Below, one piece after another: positions 15,123 to 35,704 of a stretch of 36,040 nt of DNA. Position 1 is the first letter of the stretch. Each line of letters opens with the position of its first letter. Location of the stretch: the NCBI GenBank assembly GCA_018970325.1, contig JAGWWP010000024.1, positions 1 through 36,040 on the forward strand, read 5' to 3'. This DNA is from Cyanobacteria bacterium REEB446. Its GTDB lineage: Bacteria; Cyanobacteriota; Vampirovibrionia; LMEP-6097. The notes below the pieces were generated by a model. It saw only the letters and a program-made list of their open reading frames with translations. It did no database searches and was not told the origin of the DNA. Both the position numbers and the translations under genes were made by a program.

Positions 15123-15971
15123 TTAAATGTCTAATCCAGCTGTGATATTTAGCTGCTGGCCAGTAATTCCTTTCGCTGGCTCAGAAAGTAAATAACTAAT
15201 AGCGTGTGCTATCTCTTCTGGCTCTATCCAGCGATTCTGTAAAGTCGCTCCGAGACTGTCTTTAATAACATCTTCATTAGGCATCTGATTTAACGCCATA
15301 TCAGTTCTCACCCAACCTGGACATATACTATTAACCGTAATTTTGTATTTGGAAAATTCCAATGCAAGGCTCTTTGCTAAAGCAATTAAAGCAGCTTTAC
15401 TTGCACTATAGGCTGGAGCATAAAGTTCACCAGCATAGGCACTGACTGATGAAATAAAAATAATTCGTGAATAGCTTTCTGGATTTAGTTTCACATAAGT
15501 TTTTAATAAGGGTAAAGCCGCCTTAACTAAATGAAAAGCACCATTTAAATTAACATCTAAAACCCTCTGCCAATCATTAAAACAGTATTCTTCAAAGCAT
15601 GAACTGTGATAAATACCAGCATTTACTATAAGTCCATAGAGGGACTGCTCGCAATCTTCAATTTCTGCGTTTTCATCGTCCTCATGATCCTCATGCACCC
15701 GCAGTACACTGCGGTCATTCGTCCTCCTCAGCCTTGAACTTGTACGACTGTGAGCAGTCCCTTCAAGATACTGCTCGCAATCTTCAATTTCTGCGTTTGA
15801 GAAATAATCTTGGACAGATTTTTCAGAACTCTGATCTAATTCTTGGGAACTCGGTGCGAAAACCTTATAATCAGACCGACTAAGCAAATAAGCGGCGGAC
15901 TTACCGATTCCTCGGGAGCCGCCGCTTATTAATATGTTTTTTTTAAACTTAGTTTTCTCTGAATCACTCAC
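15123..15971 (-). CDS. SDR-family oxidoreductase (FabG-like) carrying an in-frame repeat insertion
   Basis: 282 residues. The Rossmann motif ILISGGSRGIGKSAAYL, the NAG block (GLIVNAGIY), the active-site SSVSAYAGELYAPAYSASK with YxxxK, and the C-terminal GITGQQLNITAG are all present. The enzyme is an NADPH-type reductase or dehydrogenase similar to 3-oxoacyl-ACP reductase; the substrate is not certain. Residues about 59-109 are foreign: they are translated from the palindromic element and a second partial copy (15641-15798). They lie in the loop before the strand carrying NAG. Without them the protein is about 231 residues, close to a normal SDR, so the enzyme may well remain active. Confidence 0.88.
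   Translation of the reverse strand: MSDSEKTKFKKNILISGGSRGIGKSAAYLLSRSDYKVFAPSSQELDQSSEKSVQDYFSNAEIEDCEQYLEGTAHSRTSSRLRRTNDRSVLRVHEDHEDDENAEIEDCEQSLYGLIVNAGIYHSSCFEEYCFNDWQRVLDVNLNGAFHLVKAALPLLKTYVKLNPESYSRIIFISSVSAYAGELYAPAYSASKAALIALAKSLALEFSKYKITVNSICPGWVRTDMALNQMPNEDVIKDSLGATLQNRWIEPEEIAHAISYLLSEPAKGITGQQLNITAGLDI
15641..15761 (-). mobile_element. 121-bp palindromic element (copy A), in frame inside the SDR gene
   Basis: Outer arms GGGACTGCTC (15641-15650) and GAGCAGTCCC (15752-15761) are perfect complements. The centre carries the palindrome CCGCAGTACACTGCGG (15699-15714), with two copies of CATGAGGA beside it on the sense strand. The core matches copy B (28877-28997) almost base for base, but the arms do not. 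In the host frame it encodes RTSSRLRRTNDRSVLRVHED followed by an acidic stretch. No transposase is encoded, so it would have to be moved in trans. Confidence 0.85.
15770..15798 (-). repeat. 29-bp direct repeat of the element end
   Basis: The 29 bp at 15644-15672 recur exactly at 15770-15798, an offset of 126 bp (42 codons). This gives the duplicated peptide NAEIEDCEQ at both ends of the insert. It is either a second, truncated element that was the landing site, or a duplication made on insertion. Confidence 0.75.
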
Positions 15972-19909: not shown

Positions 19910-20060
19910 ACTCGTGTTCGAGTCACTTCGATCAAGTTTAATTTATTAAAATGGTGGACCCGAAGATGTGGATTCTTGACAAAGAATCCAGCAAAAAGAC
20001 TAACACTCGTGTTCGAGTCACTTCGATCAAGTTTAATTTATTAAAATGGTGGACCCGAAG
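19910..20060. repeat. 56-bp direct repeat containing the tRNA-Ala 3' end
   Basis: 19910-19965 and 20005-20060 are identical over 56 bp, offset by 95 bp. The right copy includes the last 14 nt of the tRNA-Ala gene plus 42 bp beyond it, so the left copy carries a spare tRNA 3' end (19952-19965). Both also contain GTGTTCGAGTCACTTCG, a 16-of-17 inverted copy of the tRNA T-arm (20056-20072). Between the copies, TGGATTCTT / AAGAATCCA (19969-19990) is a hairpin. Confidence 0.85.
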
Positions 20061-20122
20061 TGATTCGAACACTCGACCTCCTCGGTGCAAACGAGGCGCT
20101 CTACCAACTAAGCTACGGGCCC
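20047..20122 (-). tRNA. tRNA-Ala (anticodon UGC), CCA encoded
   Basis: The minus strand starts GGGCCCGTAGCTTAGTTGG and ends CGGGTCCACCA. The acceptor stem pairs over 7 bp with one G-U pair. The anticodon stem-loop CTCGTTTGCACCGAG has anticodon TGC. The T-loop is GTTCGAATC. Length 76 nt. The sequence TAGAAT about 20 nt upstream on the minus strand is a likely -10 element. The spacer to 20310 holds nothing else that I can recognise. Confidence 0.96.
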
Positions 20123-23130: not shown

Positions 23131-24294
23131 ATGTCTAAGTATATAGAGAGAAGCTTAGAACCATTAATACTAAAGGTCGCGAAACATTTTCCAGCCTTAG
23201 TAATAACAGGAGCTAGACAAACTGGCAAATCCACTCTAATTAAACATCTTTTCCCTGATGCTGATTATGTAACTTTCGATTCACTGAATATTAGAAATTA
23301 TGCAAAAGATGATCCCATAGGTTTTTTATCTGAATATACTGGAACTCTCATTTTAGATGAGATACAGGAAGTACCTGAATTACTATCTTACGTAAAAATG
23401 GAGATAGATAAAAATAGACAACCTGGAAGGTTTATTATTACAGGCTCACAGCAGTTTTCTTTAATGGAAGGAGTACAGGAGTCATTAGCTGGGAGGGCTG
23501 CTATTTTAGAACTCAGCACTTTCTCTTGCACTGAAATTAAATCTAAAATAAAAAAACTTAAATGGCATGAGCTTTGCTACAGGGGCTTCTATCCTGAAAT
23601 TTGGACAAATAAAGGCATTGATATAGAGCTTTGGTACAGCTCTTACATAAAGACTTTTATTGATAGAGATATCAGAAAACATTTAAAAGAACAAAATCTA
23701 TACAATTATGGTCGCTTTATTGAGTTACTTGCAGTAAGAACCACTCAAGAATTAAATATTTCAAGCTTAGCTAAAGAGCTGGGTTTAGATCAAAAAACTA
23801 TACAGACTTGGATATCTTTTCTGATCCGCTCACAGATAGTTTTTCTACTGCCTCCCTTCTATAAAAATCTTGGTAAACGCGTTACCAAAAAACCTAAACT
23901 ATATTTTTATGATACTGGTATAGTAGCGAGTTTAACTCGCCACCGAGATGCTGAGCTGGTTAGAAATGGACCCATTTCAGGAGCATTTTATGAAAATTTA
24001 GTTATAAGCGAACTGATGAAACAAAATATGGGAGAGGCTAAGCGAAAAAACTTTTTTTATTTTCGTGAGAATAATGGTCTAGAAATAGATTTACTCATAG
24101 ATGATCCTGTAAGCCCCTTAGCCTTAGAAATTAAAAGCACTATGACACCGAGTTTAGCGGATGTAAATAATTTACTTAAATTTATAGACCTTAGTCCTAA
24201 TCAATTTAACGCTTACTTAGTCTGCCCTTCTTTAGAGAAGCTGAATTTTAAAGGAGTTAAGGTGATAAATCATTTGGGGATGTGCTTTGATTAA
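23131..24294 (+). CDS. AAA-type ATPase with DUF4143 domain
   Basis: 387 residues. Walker A is GARQTGKST (27-35), Walker B LILDEIQ (about 71-77), sensor IITGSQQF, and the C-terminal DUF4143 nuclease-like part has FYFRENNGLEIDLLIDD followed by ALEIKST. These ATPases are widespread, often mobile accessory genes of unknown role. The restriction-like nuclease signature (D...E.K) is recognisable in the C-terminus. The gene has its own palindrome-covered promoter with no leader. It neighbours the decayed restriction genes, consistent with an accessory region. Confidence 0.9.
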   Translation: MSKYIERSLEPLILKVAKHFPALVITGARQTGKSTLIKHLFPDADYVTFDSLNIRNYAKDDPIGFLSEYTGTLILDEIQEVPELLSYVKMEIDKNRQPGRFIITGSQQFSLMEGVQESLAGRAAILELSTFSCTEIKSKIKKLKWHELCYRGFYPEIWTNKGIDIELWYSSYIKTFIDRDIRKHLKEQNLYNYGRFIELLAVRTTQELNISSLAKELGLDQKTIQTWISFLIRSQIVFLLPPFYKNLGKRVTKKPKLYFYDTGIVASLTRHRDAELVRNGPISGAFYENLVISELMKQNMGEAKRKNFFYFRENNGLEIDLLIDDPVSPLALEIKSTMTPSLADVNNLLKFIDLSPNQFNAYLVCPSLEKLNFKGVKVINHLGMCFD

Positions 24295-24406
24295 CCTGAG
24301 AGTCAGGTAAATCCCAAAGAATCTTATACGCAGGGATAATCAATAAAGCTGCAAATAAAATACATATTGCGTAAGAAGCTACTATATTTAAAATATAATC
24401 ATTCAT
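24257..24406 (-). CDS. 49-residue membrane peptide, CcmD-like
   Basis: The frame starts at the ATG complementary to 24404-24406 and ends at TAA (24257-24259). It begins MNDYILNIVASYAICILF, continues with one hydrophobic helix, and ends in a polar tail. The YxxASYxxxxxxxxxL pattern and size recall CcmD, the small subunit of the haem exporter used in cytochrome c maturation. No other ccm gene is in the window. It overlaps the upstream 81-residue gene by 8 nt (ATGAATGA), as coupled genes do. It also overlaps the opposite-strand ATPase gene end by 38 nt. Confidence 0.45.
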   Translation of the reverse strand: MNDYILNIVASYAICILFAALLIIPAYKILWDLPDSQVNQSTSPNDLSP

Positions 24407-24644
24407 AACCAATCCCTTTTACACTGTGCTTATCTACCAAGTATAAACCTCGATCAAGAAACTGCCAACCAATGACACAAAGAATAAAGGAAACTGGTAA
24501 AAGGATTAAATTCAATTTTTGGAATAAGTAATCTTTATCTGTAAAAATCATAAGCACTGTAGTGGCAAATGAACTCATCAATGCAAAACCAATGTAACGC
24601 AGTGTTTCGGCTCTATATTTTATACGCTCAGGAATCTCAGCCAT
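24399..24644 (-). CDS. 81-residue two-helix membrane protein
   Basis: The protein begins MAEIPERIKYRAETLRYIG, then has two membrane helices (about 16-35 and 44-62) separated by a short charged loop, and a soluble tail ending KGIGYE. No family recognised. It is translationally coupled to the CcmD-like peptide by an 8-nt overlap. The two together may form a small membrane complex. Confidence 0.6.
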   Translation of the reverse strand: MAEIPERIKYRAETLRYIGFALMSSFATTVLMIFTDKDYLFQKLNLILLPVSFILCVIGWQFLDRGLYLVDKHSVKGIGYE

Positions 24645-24781
24645 AGATTTTATTTTGGCAAAAAAATTTGAAAATATTTAAAGAGCAGGGTTTTCACCAT
24701 GATTCTGAGAATAAAGAAAAAGCTCCAAACACCTGAATAAAACTTATAATATGTAGATAATCAGTTTTATCTGATAGATTT

Positions 24782-24982
24782 ATGGATAAATTAGAACAGG
24801 AATTTTTAAATGATTGAGATACTAAGATTTGGAAGTCTGCTGTATTTGAGGAAGAAGATGGTGAACCTTTTAATGAAAAGATGAAACGCTTAACAGCACA
24901 GCTAAGTGAGCAATTTAAAGAGAGTACTAGACTAGAAGCTGAGATTAAGAAGAATTTATTGGGTATTGGCTATGAGGTATAG
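24782..24982 (+). pseudogene. C-terminal remnant of a type I restriction methyltransferase (HsdM)
   Basis: Reading from 24782 with one in-frame TGA (24815-24817) gives a stretch containing EDGEPFNEKMKRLTAQLSEQ and ending EIKKNLLGIGYEV. This is the characteristic C-terminus of HsdM, which normally ends in a helix of the form LxxEIxxNLxxxGY. The catalytic domains are absent and there is a premature stop, so this is a fragment. It stops 12 bp before the RhuM remnant, the order seen in type I operons that carry rhuM. Confidence 0.75.
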
Positions 24983-24994
24983 ATTTGTGAATGG

Positions 24995-25366
24995 ATGACA
25001 AAAAAGAAAAACACTAATCTCGAAGAAGGCTTCAACGAAATATTACTTTACGCTACACCAAGTGGCAAAATTAAAGTAGAGATTTATCTATTTAATGAAA
25101 CTATCTGGCTTACGCAGCAGAAGATCGGAGATTTATTTGGGGTAGATCGAAGTGTTATTACTAAGCATTTACAGAATATTTATACAGACGGTGAATTACA
25201 AAAAGAGGTAACAAGTGCAAAATTTGCACAAGTTCAACAAGAGGGCAACCGAACAGTAAATAGACAGATCGAATACTATAACCTCAATGCCATTATCTCA
25301 GTAGGCTATAGGGTGAACAGCTCTCAGGCAACAGCATTTCGCATTTGGGCTACAGAACTAAGATGA
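24995..25366 (+). pseudogene. Truncated RhuM-family protein
   Basis: 123 residues. The RhuM core is clear: LYATPSGKIKVEIYLFNETI, then WLTQQKIGDLFGVDRSVITK and YYNLNAIISVGYRVNSSQAT, ending FRIWATELR. Full-length RhuM proteins run to about 300 residues, continuing after FRxWAT with a conserved LKEY block. Here a stop follows at once, so about 60% is missing. RhuM genes are frequently embedded in type I restriction operons, matching the HsdM tail beside it. Confidence 0.78.
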
Positions 25367-25394
25367 AAGCGAAGAAGAGTCTTAGGAAGAAGGT

Positions 25395-25514
25395 TTAAGA
25401 ATCTAAATAACTACTTTTAATTGAAACCAGTTTCTCTTTAACTTCCTCGGAAATAGATGATTTCTCTAAATGATGGTCTATAAAATCCTTATCAGCACTA
25501 AGTGCCACAAAAGC
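25395..25514 (-). other. In-frame extension of the KAP gene beyond its stop codon
   Basis: Directly after the TAA at 25515-25517 the same frame stays open for 39 more codons and ends at TAA (25395-25397). It reads AFVALSADKDFIDHHLEKSS and then a charged helical tail. Composition resembles the KAP protein rather than random spacer. Either the stop is a recent nonsense mutation or the extension is reached by readthrough. Confidence 0.55.
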
Positions 25515-27806
25515 TTACAACCATGTTGTATTTATTGAAGCTAAAACATCCAAATCATTCATGCAAAGATATTCAAATCTAGATTTAAGAAAAGCTCTTC
25601 CAGAATCTTTTTCAGCCAAGCTTCCTGTTGTCATAGCATAGTCATAAATAGACTTAAATAATATTTCGTTAATTCCACTAATACATAGATACTTTAAATT
25701 TTGATCAACCCAATTTAAAAATTCTTGATTTTCGTGGTCAGATTTAGTAAGTAAATATTCTTTAATACTATGCTTCGGCTGAAAAGGGCTTCCATCTTCT
25801 GGATCAAAGTGATCATTTGCCTGATCTTTAAAAGCAGCTTGCAAGAAAAATATGCTTAGTAAAAGCGGATTTTCTTTCTGCTTGAAGAAATAAGATTTTA
25901 TGTTTTCTATATTCATTAGAGCGTCATGTAATTTATAAAAGCTACTAAAATCAGCATCATATTCATAAATTGACCAAAAAACTATGTGAAGTAACTTTAT
26001 AGCAATCAATTCATGCAAATATTTTTCATTGATTTTTTTTCTATAAAGCAACTTAGTAAACTCAAAAAGAAAACCATACCAGCAAGCACTATTCAAGTCA
26101 TAAATATAAGTTAGATTTTTTAAAATATATCTATAATCATCTCTACTGCTAAAGCCTATCTCACTTAGTTCAGTTTCTAAATCCTTTGTGCCTAAAGAGT
26201 CATCACTACTATAAGATTTAATTAAATTAACAAGACCATCTAAATAACGAAAAGATGAATTGAAATCCAAAAAATACCGAGGAAAATACTCTTTTAAATA
26301 CATACGATAAAGTCGATGTCTATCAAAAGTAAACATTTCCTTTAATAAGTTTAAAGCAGCTATGTCATCCACTAAATAAGGGATAGAAGACTCTTCATCT
26401 AAGCTATAAATATCTAAACCATAAAGCTTAAGTTCATATGCATAATAATCAGAAGAATATAAATCTGGACTATATGAACTCTGCTTAATACCTAAATTAC
26501 TAAAATTCTTTTCTTTTAAAAGATCATAAACCTTGGGATGATACTTTTGTAGTAAACAAACTAAAACCAGGTCAGTAATGTTATAACATTCACTCATTAG
26601 TATAATTCTTTCTCTGACAGAGTTTTGTAATGAATATAAACTGCGGTAATTTGAAATATACTCTTCAAGAAAATTCTTTATCACTTCTTCATCTATATCT
26701 CTGCGTTTATCCTCAGATAAACTATCTTTCAGCCAATTTAAAAATTCTTGAGAAAAGCTTTTTCTATCACGATTCGGTAAATTAAACTCAGAGTGAAAAA
26801 TCTTCTCTAAATACCTTTCACTTAAACTAATCTCTTTTTTAAGTTCTTCTATAACATAATCTTTATCAAAGGCTACTATGTAACAGAGATTCGGTAGCTC
26901 GAAGGTATCTCTAATTAATCTAAGAACTGCATAAATTTCTTCAGCTTTAAGACGATCTAGATCATCAATAAAAATAAAATACCTACTATAAGCTTCAGTT
27001 AATGCTTCTCGTAAATTCTTAAGCTGTGACTCGATGCTCTCGTGTCTTTTCAGAAAATTATTTAACCAATTATCTTTTGATAAAAGTGTGTCAGCATAAA
27101 GATTTACAAGCTTTTTTAAAGCCTCACTTTCTAACTCTAATCCTAGGACTCTAGTAAATTCTGTGATAATTTCTCGTTCACTTAGACAGTGCCAAGGTTT
27201 AAAATCTATTAATTTAATTTCTGACTTAGTTTTAGGATTAGCGACAAGCTCATCTTTAATAATTTTGAGAAAACTAGTTTTCCCATTGCCCCATTTACTA
27301 GTAATCGCATAAGCATAAGATTCTGATAAATTTTGTCTAAGTAAATCACTAATAAAACTTTCAATTAAATTCAAACCAAATATTCTGTCATCAACCGACT
27401 TACCAATCGCCGCATGATGAGCCCCCTTTACTTTAGCCTCTTGAATATTTGGCTGATTTTTCTTTGCTAAATTTCGTAAAAATAACTGACACAAATTAAT
27501 AATCGGTCTTAATATCCATAAGTTCAGTAAAAAAGATTTTAGTGTTTGAAACTTTTCATATACCTTGACCAAAAGTAATAAAAGAGCTGTTCCAAAAAGC
27601 AACTTAAAACATATAGAACAATATGCGTTATTTTTTAAAGCACTAAAGCTCTGAGCAAAAGCATTTAAAAATTCCTTTCCTAAAAAGATTTCTAAAAATA
27701 AAGGAGAAAAGTAATAAAGAAAACTTCCTAGCAGAAAGAATAAAGCTGCGAGAGAAATTTCTATCAGTAGATTTTTAACAGAAGCCCAAGCATCAACTCG
27801 TTTCAT
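25515..27806 (-). CDS. KAP-family P-loop NTPase with membrane anchors
   Basis: 763 residues. Two membrane segments near the N-terminus (about 14-42 and 65-82) precede the NTPase. Walker A is KWGNGKTSFL (GNGKT, about 173-177), the block FKPWHCLSEREI follows, and Walker B is FIFIDDLDRL (about 278-286), the KAP signature. The latter half (about 380-763) is helical and rich in Tyr, Ser and Asp. KAP NTPases are membrane-associated and several act in phage or plasmid exclusion (PifA type). It begins 3 bp from the radical SAM gene start side, on the same strand. The natural C-terminus may lie 39 codons further on. Confidence 0.85.
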   Translation of the reverse strand: MKRVDAWASVKNLLIEISLAALFFLLGSFLYYFSPLFLEIFLGKEFLNAFAQSFSALKNNAYCSICFKLLFGTALLLLLVKVYEKFQTLKSFLLNLWILRPIINLCQLFLRNLAKKNQPNIQEAKVKGAHHAAIGKSVDDRIFGLNLIESFISDLLRQNLSESYAYAITSKWGNGKTSFLKIIKDELVANPKTKSEIKLIDFKPWHCLSEREIITEFTRVLGLELESEALKKLVNLYADTLLSKDNWLNNFLKRHESIESQLKNLREALTEAYSRYFIFIDDLDRLKAEEIYAVLRLIRDTFELPNLCYIVAFDKDYVIEELKKEISLSERYLEKIFHSEFNLPNRDRKSFSQEFLNWLKDSLSEDKRRDIDEEVIKNFLEEYISNYRSLYSLQNSVRERIILMSECYNITDLVLVCLLQKYHPKVYDLLKEKNFSNLGIKQSSYSPDLYSSDYYAYELKLYGLDIYSLDEESSIPYLVDDIAALNLLKEMFTFDRHRLYRMYLKEYFPRYFLDFNSSFRYLDGLVNLIKSYSSDDSLGTKDLETELSEIGFSSRDDYRYILKNLTYIYDLNSACWYGFLFEFTKLLYRKKINEKYLHELIAIKLLHIVFWSIYEYDADFSSFYKLHDALMNIENIKSYFFKQKENPLLLSIFFLQAAFKDQANDHFDPEDGSPFQPKHSIKEYLLTKSDHENQEFLNWVDQNLKYLCISGINEILFKSIYDYAMTTGSLAEKDSGRAFLKSRFEYLCMNDLDVLASINTTWL

Positions 27807-27809
27807 TTC

Positions 27810-29594
27810 TCACCCAGCCTTCCCCTCAGCCTCCAAAGCATGCTTCCCAAGCATAGCCACCTGCCCCTCACTCATTAAATACTGCCAAGGATAACGCAGC
27901 GGCACAGAAATTTCAGCATCCTGCTTTTCCCCCCAATCCTTAAACACAAAATACTCAAAAGCCTCTTTAGAAATAGCCTTCTTATAATCCCCATAACTAG
28001 GCTCATCACCTAACTCTGTTAATTCTAAAAACATCTTACTAAGCGATCTATCGCCACGTGAAATTAAAGCTTGAATCTGTGTCCACTTATAGCTTTCAGG
28101 GCGCACCTCTATGCCAGCAGGTCTTAGGGCTTTAGTAATTTTTTGTAATTTTTTTTCGCTACTCGTATCTATCCCAAAGTTTTGAAAAGGAGTCTGTGCC
28201 TTCGGTGTAAAAATGCTACAGCCCCAAGTAATTTTCAGTCTAGAGAATGATTTTTTCAGTCTTTTTAAAAGATCTATAGTAGCTTCGATATCAGCATCTG
28301 TTTCATAGGGCATACCGACCATGCCATAAAGTTTTACCGCTTTAATACCGCCATTCAGAGCGTTCTCACAGGCAGTAAAAATCTCAGCTTCGCTAAGCTT
28401 TTTATTCATAATCTCTCTTAATCTCTCTGAGCCACTTTCGATAGCGATAGTCATACTCTTCACCCCAAGCTCTACTAAAAGTTCTGCCATCTCTAAAGTC
28501 ACAGTACCAGCACGCATAGAAGCGACTTGTGCCTGAGGCTTTTTCGGGTGAGCGACTAAATATTTTAAAAGCTCTATAAATTCTGGATGCTGAGTTACAC
28601 TAGGTCCTAAAAGACCTATCTTATTGGTAAATTTTAAAAGATACTCGACATTCGGAATTAAAACACTGTTAATATCTGGCTTCCTAAAAGGCAGCGTAAG
28701 ATAGCTAGCTAAGCAGAATCTACACATCTCAGGACAGCTTCTCACCACCTCTAAAAGAGCTGTATCTTCCCAATACGCATCTGGAGCTATAACCGAACTA
28801 TGAGCTAACTGCTCGGGCTTACTTTTTTCACGCTCTATTGCTTTATAATTTTGCGGAGAATATTTAACTACACCTTGGGCGTGTAGCGAAACTCCAATTT
28901 CTGCGTTTTCGTCGTCCTCATGATCCTCATGTACCCGCAGTACACTGCGGTCATTCGTCCTCCTCAGCCTTGAACTTGTTCGTTTGGCTACACGCCCACC
29001 TTGTGCACCCGCCTTATTCACTGAAACTAAAATCGCTTCATATAAAGAAGGTACATAAATTCCTGGTATCTCTTCAAAGCAGCTTAGCTTATCACCACGA
29101 GAGCTATCACTAAATCCAAAAAATTTCTCAGTCTGCGACACTATCCCATCTATATTATTTTCACAATCGCCTATAGTAATAAAATCAAAAAAATCAGCCC
29201 AAGGCTCAGGATTCGCCGTAAGAACAGGACCCCCACCATAAACTAAAGGATGAGACATATCTCTATCTTTAGATAGCAGTGGAATATTTAAATCCTCTAG
29301 AGTTTTAATAATATTAATAAAATCCAGTTCCCAAGAGACAGAGAAACTTACTAAATGAATATCACGCGGAAACTTTTCATAGAAATTCGTGAAATATCTA
29401 TAAGTAGAAGTTTTCTCATGCTCAGAAAAAAGTTTAAAAACTAACTGATAGCCAAGGCTCGCCATGCCGACTTCATAACTATTGGGGAAACAGTTAAGTA
29501 CATTAATATATCCTCCCTGCTTTCTTGTGAATAGAAATATCTCTTTTCTTAAAGCCTCTTGAAAATTAATTGGTTTAGTAGCACTATCCATCAA
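27810..29594 (-). CDS. B12-binding-domain radical SAM protein (TIGR03960-like)
   Basis: 594 residues. The N-terminal B12-binding-like region (about 1-180) contains NCFPNSYEVGMASLGYQL and PLVYGGGPVLTANPEPWADF. The radical SAM [4Fe-4S] motif CxxxCxxC is in VVRSCPEMCRFCLASY. The family is widespread but of unknown substrate; related proteins often sit near rRNA or tRNA modification genes. Residues about 199-238 are translated from the 121-bp palindromic element (28877-28997), placed in the linker between the two domains, so function may survive. It overlaps the end of aroQ by 11 bp. Confidence 0.87.
   Translation of the reverse strand: MMDSATKPINFQEALRKEIFLFTRKQGGYINVLNCFPNSYEVGMASLGYQLVFKLFSEHEKTSTYRYFTNFYEKFPRDIHLVSFSVSWELDFINIIKTLEDLNIPLLSKDRDMSHPLVYGGGPVLTANPEPWADFFDFITIGDCENNIDGIVSQTEKFFGFSDSSRGDKLSCFEEIPGIYVPSLYEAILVSVNKAGAQGGRVAKRTSSRLRRTNDRSVLRVHEDHEDDENAEIGVSLHAQGVVKYSPQNYKAIEREKSKPEQLAHSSVIAPDAYWEDTALLEVVRSCPEMCRFCLASYLTLPFRKPDINSVLIPNVEYLLKFTNKIGLLGPSVTQHPEFIELLKYLVAHPKKPQAQVASMRAGTVTLEMAELLVELGVKSMTIAIESGSERLREIMNKKLSEAEIFTACENALNGGIKAVKLYGMVGMPYETDADIEATIDLLKRLKKSFSRLKITWGCSIFTPKAQTPFQNFGIDTSSEKKLQKITKALRPAGIEVRPESYKWTQIQALISRGDRSLSKMFLELTELGDEPSYGDYKKAISKEAFEYFVFKDWGEKQDAEISVPLRYPWQYLMSEGQVAMLGKHALEAEGKAG
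28877..28997 (-). mobile_element. 121-bp palindromic element (copy B), in frame inside the radical SAM gene
   Basis: Arms GGGCGTGTAGCGAAAC (28877-28892) and GTTTGGCTACACGCCC (28982-28997) pair with one mismatch. The 5-bp flanks are identical: ACCTT at 28872-28876 and ACCTT at 28998-29002, the mark of a target-site duplication. Element plus one flank is 126 bp (42 codons). The central palindrome CCGCAGTACACTGCGG is at 28935-28950. The core encodes the same peptide as copy A in the same frame. Confidence 0.88.
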
Positions 29595-30039
29595 TAAAAT
29601 ATTTCAAAGCAAGGATATAACTTTTAGCAGCGAAGCCCGATATCTGCCCCTTACAGACAGCTGCTATCATCGAGGTGTGTCTAAAATTTTCTCTTGCATG
29701 AATATTAGATAAATGTACTTCTATCACGGGAACTTTTATAGATGAAATAGCGTCTCTAAGAGCAATACTCGTATGTGTATAAGCACCAGCATTCAGAATG
29801 ATACCTTTCATCTGCTGAGACTGCTCGCAATCTTCAACTTCTGCGTTTCCAGCTTCTTGAATTTTAGAAACTAATTCCCCCTCGATATTCGACTGAAATG
29901 TTTCTATGTCTAAATTAGCTGTAGCCGCAAGCTTTATAAGCTGCTGATTAATATCAAGCAAGGTCTCTGAGCCATAATATTCTGGCTCTCTCTTGCCAAG
30001 CATATTTAAATTCGGACCATGAATAACTAGAATTTTCAT
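29584..30039 (-). CDS. aroQ: Type II 3-dehydroquinate dehydratase
   Basis: 151 residues. The family opening ILVIHGPNLNMLGKREPEYYG contains the catalytic Arg and Tyr. INAG-type block IILNAGAYTHTSIALRDAI and the active-site EVHLSNIHARENFRHTS are intact. It dehydrates 3-dehydroquinate in the shikimate pathway and forms a dodecamer in relatives. Residues about 64-76 (GNAEVEDCEQSQQ) come from a short copy of the palindromic element inserted before the strand leading to the NAG-like loop, a position that tolerates length changes. The radical SAM gene follows with an 11-bp overlap. Confidence 0.93.
   Translation of the reverse strand: MKILVIHGPNLNMLGKREPEYYGSETLLDINQQLIKLAATANLDIETFQSNIEGELVSKIQEAGNAEVEDCEQSQQMKGIILNAGAYTHTSIALRDAISSIKVPVIEVHLSNIHARENFRHTSMIAAVCKGQISGFAAKSYILALKYFIDG
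29820..29848 (-). repeat. Short palindromic-element derivative in aroQ
   Basis: The 29 bp match the repeat at 15644-15672 in 28 of 29 positions (one A to C change), giving NAEVEDCEQ instead of NAEIEDCEQ in the same frame. Flanking arms are weak (GCTG / CAGC), suggesting an old or trimmed copy. Confidence 0.7.
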
Positions 30040-32242: not shown

Positions 32243-32606
32243 TCCTCTCGCCCACCTGAAGGTATTAGCTGATAAAATCGGTTTAGCCTTTCAAAGAAAA
32301 TACCTCAGCACACTTGCAGTAGCCGCTGCCGATTCAGTTACCAATATAGTAAATAGCTCTCAGGCAAACAAACTCATACCCTCACCTCTTATAGCGGGGG
32401 CATTACGGATAGCGTTAATGAATGCTGCTGTAAAAGCTCAATCAGGAAAACAGCCACCAGAAAACTCAACAAGTAACGATATCGAAAAAAATAAATTAAA
32501 AAATCAGCCTCTGGAATCTAGTCCTAAACTGACTCCTGATTCCAATCCAGAGCACCCTTCTTCCATGCATAAAGTAAGCCTATTAGAAGAATCGCTACAA
32601 ACATAA
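32190..32606 (+). CDS. Hypothetical C-terminal frame, likely continuation of the preceding gene
   Basis: Open frame of 138 residues from a GTG. It has no ATG before residue 74 and no ribosome binding site, and its first 53 nt overlap the preceding gene. From about residue 14 it reads as plausible protein (LKVLADKIGLAFQRKYLSTL, then ALRIALMNAAVK), ending in a Pro/Ser/Asn-rich tail. It is in the +1 frame of the gene before it. Its last 83 nt overlap the 3' end of nuoA on the other strand, which is unusual in this compact genome. Possibly coded only through frameshifting. Confidence 0.4.
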   Translation: MALPLAPYSYSEKLNTNNPLAHLKVLADKIGLAFQRKYLSTLAVAAADSVTNIVNSSQANKLIPSPLIAGALRIALMNAAVKAQSGKQPPENSTSNDIEKNKLKNQPLESSPKLTPDSNPEHPSSMHKVSLLEESLQT

Positions 32607-32910
32607 AAGCCTCAAATATTATAAAGCCTCTAGTACCCGCTTCCATAAAGGTAAATAAACTAGCCCATGGCATTAAGAAAACGAACTCTACATCAAAAAT
32701 TATGAACATAATCGCAAAGAGATAGTATTTAATGTCGAACTGGACTTGGCTCTCCATCTCAGATTTCATACCGCACTCATAGGTGTCATTCTTAACAGCA
32801 CCAGGACTGTAAATACCACATATTCTCTGAATTGCGATACTCAAGCCAAGCAAAAATATGCCATTTAGAATAGCTACTACAGAGATGATTCCTATTTGTC
32901 CTGTTTCCAT
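32524..32910 (-). CDS. nuoA: NADH-quinone oxidoreductase subunit A (complex I, ND3/NdhC)
   Basis: 128 residues with three membrane helices. The conserved loop YECGMKSEMESQVQFDIKYY carries the ECG cysteine that changes accessibility in the active/deactive transition of complex I. FDVEFVFLMPWA follows. The subunit is part of the membrane arm at the quinone tunnel. In most genomes it begins a nuoABC.. operon, but here the downstream side is occupied by the convergent orphan frame and no nuoB follows. Confidence 0.94.
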   Translation of the reverse strand: METGQIGIISVVAILNGIFLLGLSIAIQRICGIYSPGAVKNDTYECGMKSEMESQVQFDIKYYLFAIMFIIFDVEFVFLMPWASLFTFMEAGTRGFIIFEAFMFVAILLIGLLYAWKKGALDWNQESV

Positions 32911-32929: not shown

Positions 32930-33619
32930 CTATCCTGAAATTCTTTCCAGTTTTTCAAGCCATTCGTGGAAATGGCGGCATTTGGTTCGGAGAGTATTTA
33001 AGCCGATGCTTTCTGCGATAGAAAAACCAATAGTACTTTTTTGAAAGCTTTCTGAGAAAATTTCTTTCATGTGTACAGAAGGTCCTTTATCACTGTTAAT
33101 CAGTTCTGGATTTTCATATTGTCTGATAATTTTTTCATATCTTTTCTTTTGCTCTTGGTCTGTGTTCATTAATTTTTCAAGCGTCTTAGCGCTATCAACG
33201 AACATAAAGGCTTCAAATTCGTGTAACTGTAAGTATGGAATAAATTTATTTATATTCATACCATCGTTTTCTAATGAGCTTTTAAGAGACTCTTCTAGAA
33301 AACGAACTCTTTCATAAGGATCTCTTGTATTTCTTGATTTTTCGTACATGGGGAAATCTTTTGGTAAGCGGTATAAATCAAACATCGTACTGATCAATCC
33401 TAGATTAGGATTATTATTGTTCAAGTGACGTTTTAGCTCTAACCTGACTTGCTTTTCATAGTTAGTAATGCCCCCCTTTTGATTGGGACCAGTCGGTGTC
33501 GATTTAGTATCGATTAATACTGCTTTTAAAAAAAATTTTTTTACTTCTAAGTAAGGTTTTAAAACCCCATCACAGAAACGTTTTTCAGTATGACCTTCTA
33601 CTAAAATAATAATTTCCAT
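32930..33619 (-). CDS. DUF4276 protein (TOPRIM-like), partner of the adjacent ATPase
   Basis: 229 residues from the ATG complementary to 33617-33619, one nt after the ATPase stop codon (TGA-C-ATG); a longer start inside the ATPase gene (33661) is less likely. The opening MEIIILVEGHTEKRFCD has the E-G-x-T-E motif of TOPRIM-like nucleases, and LQLHEFEAFMFVD and PSVHMKEIF complete the DUF4276 pattern. The domain is predicted to be a Mg-dependent nuclease. One-nt spacing shows coupling with the ATPase. Codon usage looks like the host's. Confidence 0.85.
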   Translation of the reverse strand: MEIIILVEGHTEKRFCDGVLKPYLEVKKFFLKAVLIDTKSTPTGPNQKGGITNYEKQVRLELKRHLNNNNPNLGLISTMFDLYRLPKDFPMYEKSRNTRDPYERVRFLEESLKSSLENDGMNINKFIPYLQLHEFEAFMFVDSAKTLEKLMNTDQEQKKRYEKIIRQYENPELINSDKGPSVHMKEIFSESFQKSTIGFSIAESIGLNTLRTKCRHFHEWLEKLERISG

Positions 33620-33620
33620 G

Positions 33621-34715
33621 TCAAGGATTAGCTCCAAATAAATTTTTTTGCCATAATTCACCTAAAGAGTAATCATCTAGCCAATCTTTTAAATCATTTG
33701 AATTAAGCCTGCGAAAGACACTCTCTTTATCTTTTCTATCTACGACAATAATGTCCTCGGGCTTAAATTTATCTATTAATTGAACGGATTGAGTGGAAAT
33801 AATTACCTGTCTGTTTACAGCAGCTTGTTTAATCATGCTCGCTAAAATTTCTATCGCATATGGATGTAAGCCTAGTTCTGGTTCGTCTATGACTATAGTA
33901 CTCGGAGGATCTGGTTGTAGTAATAAGGTAGCGAGACAGATAAAACGTAATGTTCCATCTGATAAATAGTAGGCATCACGATAATCATCGGAATGTTTTT
34001 CTTTCCAGATCAGGGATACGGTATCACCATTAGGATTGAAATCAAAATCTTTAAAAAAAGGAGCTACTAGTTTAATATGATCTACAATACCGTTATAGTG
34101 GCTATTGTGGTTGAGTTTTAATTTATATAAAAAGGCTGCTAGATTTTCTGCAAACGGTCTTAATGACTGGTTTTCATTAATAGAATTTTTTTGTTTAACT
34201 TTTGCTTCATCACTTGTATCGTGAAAGTGAAATAATCTCCAAGATGTTAAGGCACTGTGTACATAGTAAGAGACACTGTTTTGGCCAGTCCATCCAGTTT
34301 TTTTTGCATAGTCAGCAAGGCTGCTTTCTATAGTATTAGTCATATTGCAGTGAACAAAGTCTTGACCGTTACTTTTGATGTAAACTGACTTTTCGGATTT
34401 AAAAAATAATGTTGGTTCGCTTCCTAAACGAGGTTCTAGTTCACAGACATACTTATTGTTTCCGAAAATAATTTCAAATGAAATTAACTCTGTTTCTTTA
34501 CTGCCGCAAAAAAGAAAATAATCAGCACCATATTTTATGGTGTAGTGTCCAAGGCGCTCATTAATAATCTCATTCAGTAATTTAAAAAAGGAAATAAAGT
34601 TAGATTTTCCCGAACCATTTGAACCTACTAAAATATTGATAGGCTTCAGCTCTAAATCTAATTCTCGAATTGACTTAAATCCTTGTATTTTTATTCTAGT
34701 GACTGGATTACCCAT
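33621..34715 (-). CDS. SMC/OLD-like AAA ATPase (AAA_21)
   Basis: 364 residues. KIQGFKSIRELDLELKPINI leads into Walker A GSNGSGKS (31-38); the ABC-like signature YLSDGTLRF and Walker B IVIDEPELGLHP follow, then QVIISTQSVQLID. This is the architecture of OLD and RecF-like ATPases that work with a TOPRIM nuclease. Here the nuclease domain is split off as the following DUF4276 gene. Such pairs are accessory genes with likely anti-phage or anti-plasmid roles, by analogy with OLD, Gabija and PARIS. Confidence 0.87.
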   Translation of the reverse strand: MGNPVTRIKIQGFKSIRELDLELKPINILVGSNGSGKSNFISFFKLLNEIINERLGHYTIKYGADYFLFCGSKETELISFEIIFGNNKYVCELEPRLGSEPTLFFKSEKSVYIKSNGQDFVHCNMTNTIESSLADYAKKTGWTGQNSVSYYVHSALTSWRLFHFHDTSDEAKVKQKNSINENQSLRPFAENLAAFLYKLKLNHNSHYNGIVDHIKLVAPFFKDFDFNPNGDTVSLIWKEKHSDDYRDAYYLSDGTLRFICLATLLLQPDPPSTIVIDEPELGLHPYAIEILASMIKQAAVNRQVIISTQSVQLIDKFKPEDIIVVDRKDKESVFRRLNSNDLKDWLDDYSLGELWQKNLFGANP

Positions 34716-34783
34716 TACTTGCTCAGATTTATATTTTATCTATATTGCAAAAAAATTTTTACAATGCAGAGATTTAACTGATT

Positions 34784-35704
34784 CTAGCTTATCTTCCTTA
34801 AATACAATTCCATCGTATTAGATAAAAGCATGGCCACCGTCATTAGTCCGACTCCGCCTGGTACTGGCGTGATAAAAGAAGCTTTTTCAGAAGCGGTTTT
34901 AAAATCTACATCCCCGACTATTTTTTTGAGTTCACTGCCATCCGCTTGCACTTGCATCACAGCATTAATCCCGACATCTATCACTACGGCTCCAGGCTTT
35001 AACCATGAACCTTGAATATAATTAGGTTTACCAATCGCCGCAACTATAATATCTGCATTTTTACATTCTTCTTCTAGATTAGCGGTGCGGCTATGAGCCA
35101 TAATAACCGTGGCGTTAGCTTGATTTAAAAGAATCGAGATCGGCAAACCAACTAGGGTACTACGTCCTATAACTAAAACTCTTTTAGCCTCGGTCTTAAT
35201 ACCATACCTTTTTAATAACTCCATACAGCCTTTTGGAGTGCAAGGATGTATCGCAGATTTAGAATTAGAGAGTAATCTACCTAGGTTAGCAGTAGTCAGA
35301 CCATCTACATCTTTATCTACGGATATAGAATCTACTATGTCTTGAGTAAACTCTCTTAAATGATCTGGCAGAGGTAACTGCAAAAGAATACCGTCAATTC
35401 CATCATCTTTATTGAACTCGGCTATCTGCTGTAGAAGTTCTTCCTTAGAAATGCTCACAGCCATAATTTTTTTTATAGATTTAATACCCACTGCTTCGCA
35501 CGACTTCTCTTTACTACTCACGTAATAATGACTAGCAGGGTCATCACCGACTAAAATCACCGCAAGACAAGGAGGTCTTGAAAATCTCTCATCAAGGTGG
35601 TTTTCATCAGAAACAGTTAAAAATCCACTGATTTTTTTCTTTAATTCTTCTTTAATTTCAGTCGAAATTTTCTTACCATCAATGATTTGAGCAGCTTCTA
35701 GCAT
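34784..35704 (-). CDS. folD: Methylenetetrahydrofolate dehydrogenase / cyclohydrolase
   Basis: 306 residues. IDGKKIS, the catalytic-lysine block ASHYYVSSKEKSCE, DGILLQLPLP, DKDVDGLTTANLGRL, the dinucleotide motif VIGRSTLVGLPI and TPVPGGVGLMTVAML are all present. It links one-carbon units of folate for purine and formyl-Met synthesis. About 13-15 extra residues (SDENHLDERFSRPP, near residue 35) lengthen the loop before LAVILVG; this insert does not match the palindromic element. The ATPase/DUF4276 pair sits downstream on the same strand. Confidence 0.95.
   Translation of the reverse strand: MLEAAQIIDGKKISTEIKEELKKKISGFLTVSDENHLDERFSRPPCLAVILVGDDPASHYYVSSKEKSCEAVGIKSIKKIMAVSISKEELLQQIAEFNKDDGIDGILLQLPLPDHLREFTQDIVDSISVDKDVDGLTTANLGRLLSNSKSAIHPCTPKGCMELLKRYGIKTEAKRVLVIGRSTLVGLPISILLNQANATVIMAHSRTANLEEECKNADIIVAAIGKPNYIQGSWLKPGAVVIDVGINAVMQVQADGSELKKIVGDVDFKTASEKASFITPVPGGVGLMTVAMLLSNTMELYLRKIS

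Follow-up and report, generated by a model that had tools for sequence, protein, structure and literature searches.

A recently gained HEC-01 gene pair between folD and nuoA of Cyanobacteria bacterium REEB446, with a predicted TOPRIM-like DUF4276 protein

Two adjacent genes between folD and nuoA of Cyanobacteria bacterium REEB446 encode an OLD-like ATPase and a DUF4276 protein, and this locus is a real, recently gained member of the catalogued candidate system HEC-01. We examined the pair in a window of 36,040 nucleotides (contig JAGWWP010000024.1), and the features concerned are collected in Table 1. With moderate confidence, we read it as a horizontally gained HEC-01 locus that is most likely an abortive-infection module on a split-OLD, PARIS-like plan. 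The find itself is ordinary; it is useful for a clean empty site and for a TOPRIM assignment with an altered motif.

Both open reading frames are present in the open reading frame list of the window where the first-pass annotation had placed them, and the coupling by one nucleotide that it described can be read directly: the ATPase stop codon TGA (33623-33621) is followed by one base and then by the DUF4276 start codon ATG (33619-33617). A longer GTG start at 33661, offered for the same frame by the program that listed the open reading frames, is unlikely because homologues start at ATG. The DUF4276 protein matches PF14103 (E 9e-42) and is encoded by the only gene of this family in the genome. 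The ATPase matches AAA_21 (PF13304, E 1.2e-28) and carries a Walker A (G31-x-N-G-x-G-K37-S), a Walker B (ending in D277-E278-P), and a signature-like S252-D-G. An Rfam search around the pair gave 0 matches, and a scan for promoters and terminators at the pair returned nothing better than shuffled sequences did.

Table 1. Positions of the gene pair, its insertion borders and its flanking genes in the window
Feature	Position	Strand	Remarks
HEC-01A-type ABC/OLD-like ATPase	33621..34715	minus	364 aa, AAA_21; Pfam, PADLOC-DB, alignment
HEC-01B-type DUF4276 TOPRIM-like protein	32930..33619	minus	229 aa, ATG start at 33619; Pfam, PADLOC-DB, model
folD	34784..35704	minus	upstream flank; PF02882/PF00763; stop codon now from insert
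nuoA	32524..32910	minus	downstream flank; PF00507
Whole insert, 1,859 bp	32931..34789	minus	74-bp stretch before ATPase start plus two genes; absent in sister species G001
GATA, folD side of insert	34790..34793	minus	with the insertion, folD acquires a new end (AGC TAG)
GATA, nuoA end of insert	32931..32934	minus	runs into DUF4276 stop codon (GGA-TAG); 4-bp duplication or microhomology

In PADLOC-DB 2.0.0, the ATPase matches HEC-01A (PDLC04175, E 9.2e-141) over residues 3-364 of 364 and profile positions 4-362 of 363, and the DUF4276 protein matches HEC-01B (PDLC04188, E 8.3e-62) over residues 2-227. Since both proteins match these models near full length, the pair has a candidate-system name, membership being judged by E-value and length coverage, and its earlier description as an unnamed system has to be given up. 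HEC-01 (Hma-embedded candidate 01) is mentioned in a genome survey (PMC12724379); the window pair resembles it in having both proteins full-length, adjacent and in the same order, but lies between folD and nuoA and not within an Hma operon, a location that we took as the origin of the name and not as a requirement for each locus. Our literature search, over 5.39 million papers, found none naming DUF4276 or PF14103 and, within the passages and abstracts it covered, no phage assay of HEC-01. Several HECs, including HEC-06, are credited with antiviral activity in a preprint (10.1101/2024.01.29.577857), according to PMC12988326. Membership in MADS, judged from the ATPase alone, was rejected: MAD3 is its best NCBIfam match, at 114.8 bits against a cut-off of 420, and the 20 papers listed in a literature search on MAD3/MAD4 looked unrelated.

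The insertion between nuoA and folD, proposed in the first-pass annotation, is confirmed by the Pfam matches of both flanks and by the sister species G001, which lacks the pair and has nuoA 20 nt after folD, thus presenting an empty site. Once joined, the two flanks of the insert align with G001 at 94% DNA identity across 1,430 bases with no gap. Besides the leader stretch and the two genes, the insert holds nothing more; no transposase or other mobility gene lies in it, no inverted repeat was seen by eye at its ends, and its GC content is 32.9% as against 35.0% for the window. The insertion is recent and scarless. Matches to folD and nuoA are also adjacent, within 170 nt, in five further genomes of the family (G003, G005, G006, G007, and G008) and lie on separate contigs in G004; in G002, folD was not found and the ATPase-DUF4276 pair adjoins nuoA. 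As folD adjoins nuoA elsewhere in the family too, the pair was gained, and on the simplest reading this happened in the lineage of the window genome and G002. A role of nuoA as an insertion hotspot was considered and rejected: among 80 DUF4276 loci from a contig database, only a record of G002 with the same insertion (L016) has nuoA, and none has folD near the pair in the DNA covered. In a genome of another family of the class (G036; L005, 784-2257), a HEC-01 pair also adjoins nuoA, on the opposite side, which is probably coincidence.

DUF4276 is present in 9 of 60 related genomes, with no match in the other 51, and all 12 places in which it occurs there have an ATPase-like open reading frame directly upstream by eye, three of them being cut by contig ends. 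The 80 contig-database loci, collected by the pattern HE[FT]E, are spread over many phyla including archaea. Two of them are records also seen among the related genomes (L016 is L010 of G002, and L080 is L008 of G004); L016 is a Candidatus Caenarcaniphilales MAG whose DUF4276 protein is 99% identical to that of the window. In a profile search, 77 of the 79 loci with a separate DUF4276 gene have the ATPase immediately upstream of it, the exceptions being a locus at a contig end (L027) and one with a truncated DUF4276 (L050), while a single open reading frame joins both proteins in L070 (78/80 upstream or fused). Given this constancy, together with the existence of an empty site, the arrangement is not due to chance. 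A 4-nt overlap joins 42 of the 77 separate pairs, and protein distances in the ATPase correlate with those in DUF4276 (Mantel r 0.61, with 0 of 2000 permutations as high). The fused frame of L070 was rejected as strong proof of contact between the proteins: in G137, the relative closest to it (67% in the ATPase), there are two genes that share 8 nt in different frames, so that the single frame of L070 may be an isolated case or result from a frameshift error. The ATPase tree requires 31 changes of phylum label (minimum 19; shuffled mean 48), and the class of the window is scattered on it, with L005/L006, L007, and L080, for example, grouped away from the window. This scatter fits repeated transfer, each single transfer not being proven by it. 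More distant DUF4276 proteins of the class (L014 and L015 of G036, and L011-L013) each stand behind a different AAA-type ATPase and are other members of a wider ATPase-DUF4276 group.

The description of the DUF4276 protein as TOPRIM-like gains support from a confident structure model (82 sequences; pLDDT 92.2, pTM 0.89). A search of solved structures with the DUF4276 profile gave 0 matches at E <= 10, and Foldseek against the PDB gave no match under E 0.001, the first being the OLD C-terminal region 6njv (E 2.8e-3). In a second structural comparison, the OLD TOPRIM 6nk8 leads (Z 9.1, rmsd 4.2, 173 aligned), followed by the OLD TOPRIM regions 6njx, 6njw, and 6njv and by PH0156 (Z 8.8); PARIS AriB (8ux9_A) reaches Z 8.5 (rmsd 4.9, 180 aligned), retron Eco8 Z 7.0, and GajA Z 6.8. 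The lead of TOPRIM structures in the model comparison is modest because unrelated structures reach Z 6.9 and below, yet it is consistent in kind.

Conserved residues of the aligned DUF4276 proteins include E8 and E12 (80/82 each), G50 (81/82), D81 (82/82), and the Gly-Gly of the TOPRIM motif (80-81/82). H133, E134, E136, P171, and E172 are each present in 82/82, an invariance that is partly built in for H133, E134, and E136 because the loci were selected by the HE[FT]E pattern. The TOPRIM active site of GajA is reported to consist of E379, G409, and D432/D434 (PMC10781630). Position 83 of DUF4276, which corresponds to the second Asp of the GajA DxD motif, is Tyr in 74 and Phe in 8 of the aligned proteins, the residues having been matched by motif order and not by superposed coordinates. 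A search for the full OLD TOPRIM active site (Glu, Gly, and DxD) in DUF4276 thus found D-x-Y, with the second Asp absent in 82/82. The DUF4276 protein is a probable nucleic-acid cutter.

The ATPase is OLD-like, as had been proposed: its profile finds TsOLD (6p74, E 1.1e-14) as the best solved relative, with PtuA, retron ATPases, GajA, and AriA lower. When L070 was modelled whole, Foldseek placed TsOLD (E 1.5e-15, 615 columns) and GajA first, over 615-677 columns and with large rmsd, and by Z the ATPase half is nearest to SMC and Rad50 heads. The same joint model, used as a check on the structure of the complex, has confident domains but does not fix their arrangement or interface because its pTM is 0.66 and its linker pLDDT is below 50. 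The equation of the pair with a split OLD nuclease holds in part: an ATPase followed by a TOPRIM-like domain is indeed found in two genes, while the altered DxD departs from it. OLD nucleases of classes 1-3 (TsOLD, GajA, and the retron Eco8 effector) share the same two domains in the same order; they differ from the window pair in that it is split over two genes, has D-x-Y in place of D-x-D, and has no helicase or reverse transcriptase beside it.

The proposed parallel to PARIS (AriA, an OLD-ABC protein, with AriB, a TOPRIM protein; class 4 OLD) is sound as regards the plan, since in both an ATPase and a TOPRIM or TOPRIM-like protein are encoded by separate adjacent genes, and the DUF4276 model resembles AriB. 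The second proteins differ: ours belongs to DUF4276 and gives no DUF4435 or AriB match at E <= 1 in Pfam and PADLOC, DUF4435 being the family of AriB. The parallel to Gabija fails for want of a helicase partner, and membership in that system was rejected, as the neighbors are folD and nuoA and no GajB UvrD-like helicase is among them. HEC-04, or IbfA, compared by its description, has the same domain pair in a single fused ABC ATPase-TOPRIM gene, and resistance to T4 and T5 is reported for it (PMC12111858).

The defence context of the family is real but patchy. In five of the 80 loci (L036, L071, L075, L086, and L091), the pair lies between an SNF2 helicase and a methylase that resemble those of the Aeromonas plasmid pMC64A, an Hma-type embedding that occurs in 0 of 17 control stretches, the nine phmmer queries for such neighbors having come from plasmid loci in which the pair was known beforehand. 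Weaker helicase matches stand beside the pair in L033, L039, and L067, and a methylase match in L054. The pair was found in 12 of 72,556 plasmid records; three of the four plasmids examined have methylase and helicase neighbors (restriction-type operons), and the fourth, a small mobilizable plasmid of Acinetobacter, carries it next to VapBC. Phage records gave 0 of 50,697 and viral contigs two confirmed matches; on one of these, a Mu-like prophage contig (L158, 4122-6648), the pair directly follows an S24-type repressor gene, opposite a Mu transposase. For 17 loci on long contigs, we also counted the PADLOC matches within 5 kb of the pair: at E <= 1e-25, no family exceeds 2 of 116 neighbors, a count reached by type III restriction and methylase and by DrmD/HmaA-type helicases; for controls (122 of 123 proteins, one having been left out for its size), the maximum is 1 of 122 per family (GajB-type helicase, PD-T4-6, and methylases). 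With strong PADLOC neighbors so few, most of these loci lie outside a strong defence island, and the window pair itself is flanked by housekeeping genes. About 5 kb from it, behind housekeeping genes, other PADLOC candidates occupy 23131-27806: an AAA_14-DUF4143 protein that matches the PDC-S01 model (E 9.5e-100), a RhuM-like protein in truncated form (PDC-S05), and a KAP NTPase of 29% GC that matches the PifA model (E 4e-34). This stretch is a second candidate patch of defence or mobile genes.

Context and kinship make a defence role plausible. In PARIS, the OLD-ABC protein AriA is described as sensing Ocr and activating AriB, which then cuts tRNA (PMC12839542, PMC12409363), and in GajA the TOPRIM is reported to be kept closed by ATP binding (PMC12796447). 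By the logic of these two systems, we infer that HEC-01A would bind ATP as a dimer or higher assembly, would restrain HEC-01B, and would sense either a phage product or the blocking of a host defence. HEC-01B would then cut nucleic acid, with tRNA as the target if it follows AriB or DNA if it follows OLD and GajA, and the infected cell would stop growing or die ahead of phage release. The archaeal OLD protein Cran1 counts against a defence reading, since it is described as having a role in the cell cycle and not in defence (PMC12796447).

That precedent would also suit a housekeeping pair for DNA or RNA processing, consisting of an SMC/RecF-like ATPase and a TOPRIM maturase and acquired by transfer. 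The nearness of the ATPase fold to SMC and Rad50 heads agrees with this, as does the existence of M5-type TOPRIM RNases (PMC12409363); however, a pair so patchily present among relatives, and with an empty site in the sister species, makes such a function quite improbable. It is also possible, if unlikely, that the pair is an addiction or exclusion module resembling a toxin-antitoxin system, in which HEC-01A curbs the toxicity of HEC-01B and the two genes are maintained through addiction and not through defence. Two touching genes in fixed order, the VapBC neighbor on the Acinetobacter plasmid, and the Pfam description of AAA_21 as a putative AbiEii toxin (type IV TA) speak for this, but insertion into a chromosomal operon and embedding in Hma and restriction operons suit defence better, and the two readings do not exclude each other. 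Finally, housekeeping flanks and an insert devoid of mobility genes could mark a decaying passenger without present function in this genome; we regard this as very improbable, as both frames are intact, their motifs are conserved, and a near-identical intact DUF4276 persists in G002.

Beyond the favored abortive-infection module, we tentatively raise a bolder and rather doubtful proposal. HEC-01 may be a separate split-OLD class with an acidic TOPRIM center of D-x-Y and H-E-x-E, a guard that would fire when phages disable Hma or restriction; it may also move alone as a bare two-gene cassette, inserting by short microhomology between housekeeping genes without a transposase. The active site and the proposed guard role can now be tested directly. 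Through this locus, a candidate system that is catalogued but has received little study becomes known from an uncultured lineage. The locus also offers structural grounds for treating DUF4276 as a putative TOPRIM nuclease whose active site is altered, and it provides a clean before-and-after pair in which a defence candidate was acquired as two bare genes.

Elsewhere in the window, a dispersed repeat of 94 nt occurs at 15653-15746 and 28889-28982 (95% alike), both copies being read in frame within genes for an SDR and a radical-SAM protein (peptide ..SRLRRTNDRSVLRVHEDHEDDENAEIED..), and in part in aroQ (29584-30039). It has at least 44 matches in the window's genome, at least 46 in G001, at least 50 in G002, and at least 11 in G006; the matches listed include none from five further genomes of the family. 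Among 12 loci examined, three other, unrelated genes also contain it as an open in-frame stretch. The repeat resembles the Rickettsia palindromic elements. Two identical direct repeats of 56 nt lie at 19910-19965 and 20005-20060; the second overlaps the end of a tRNA-Ala gene (20047-20122), and they are possibly a duplicated tRNA end or an attachment-site-like repeat.
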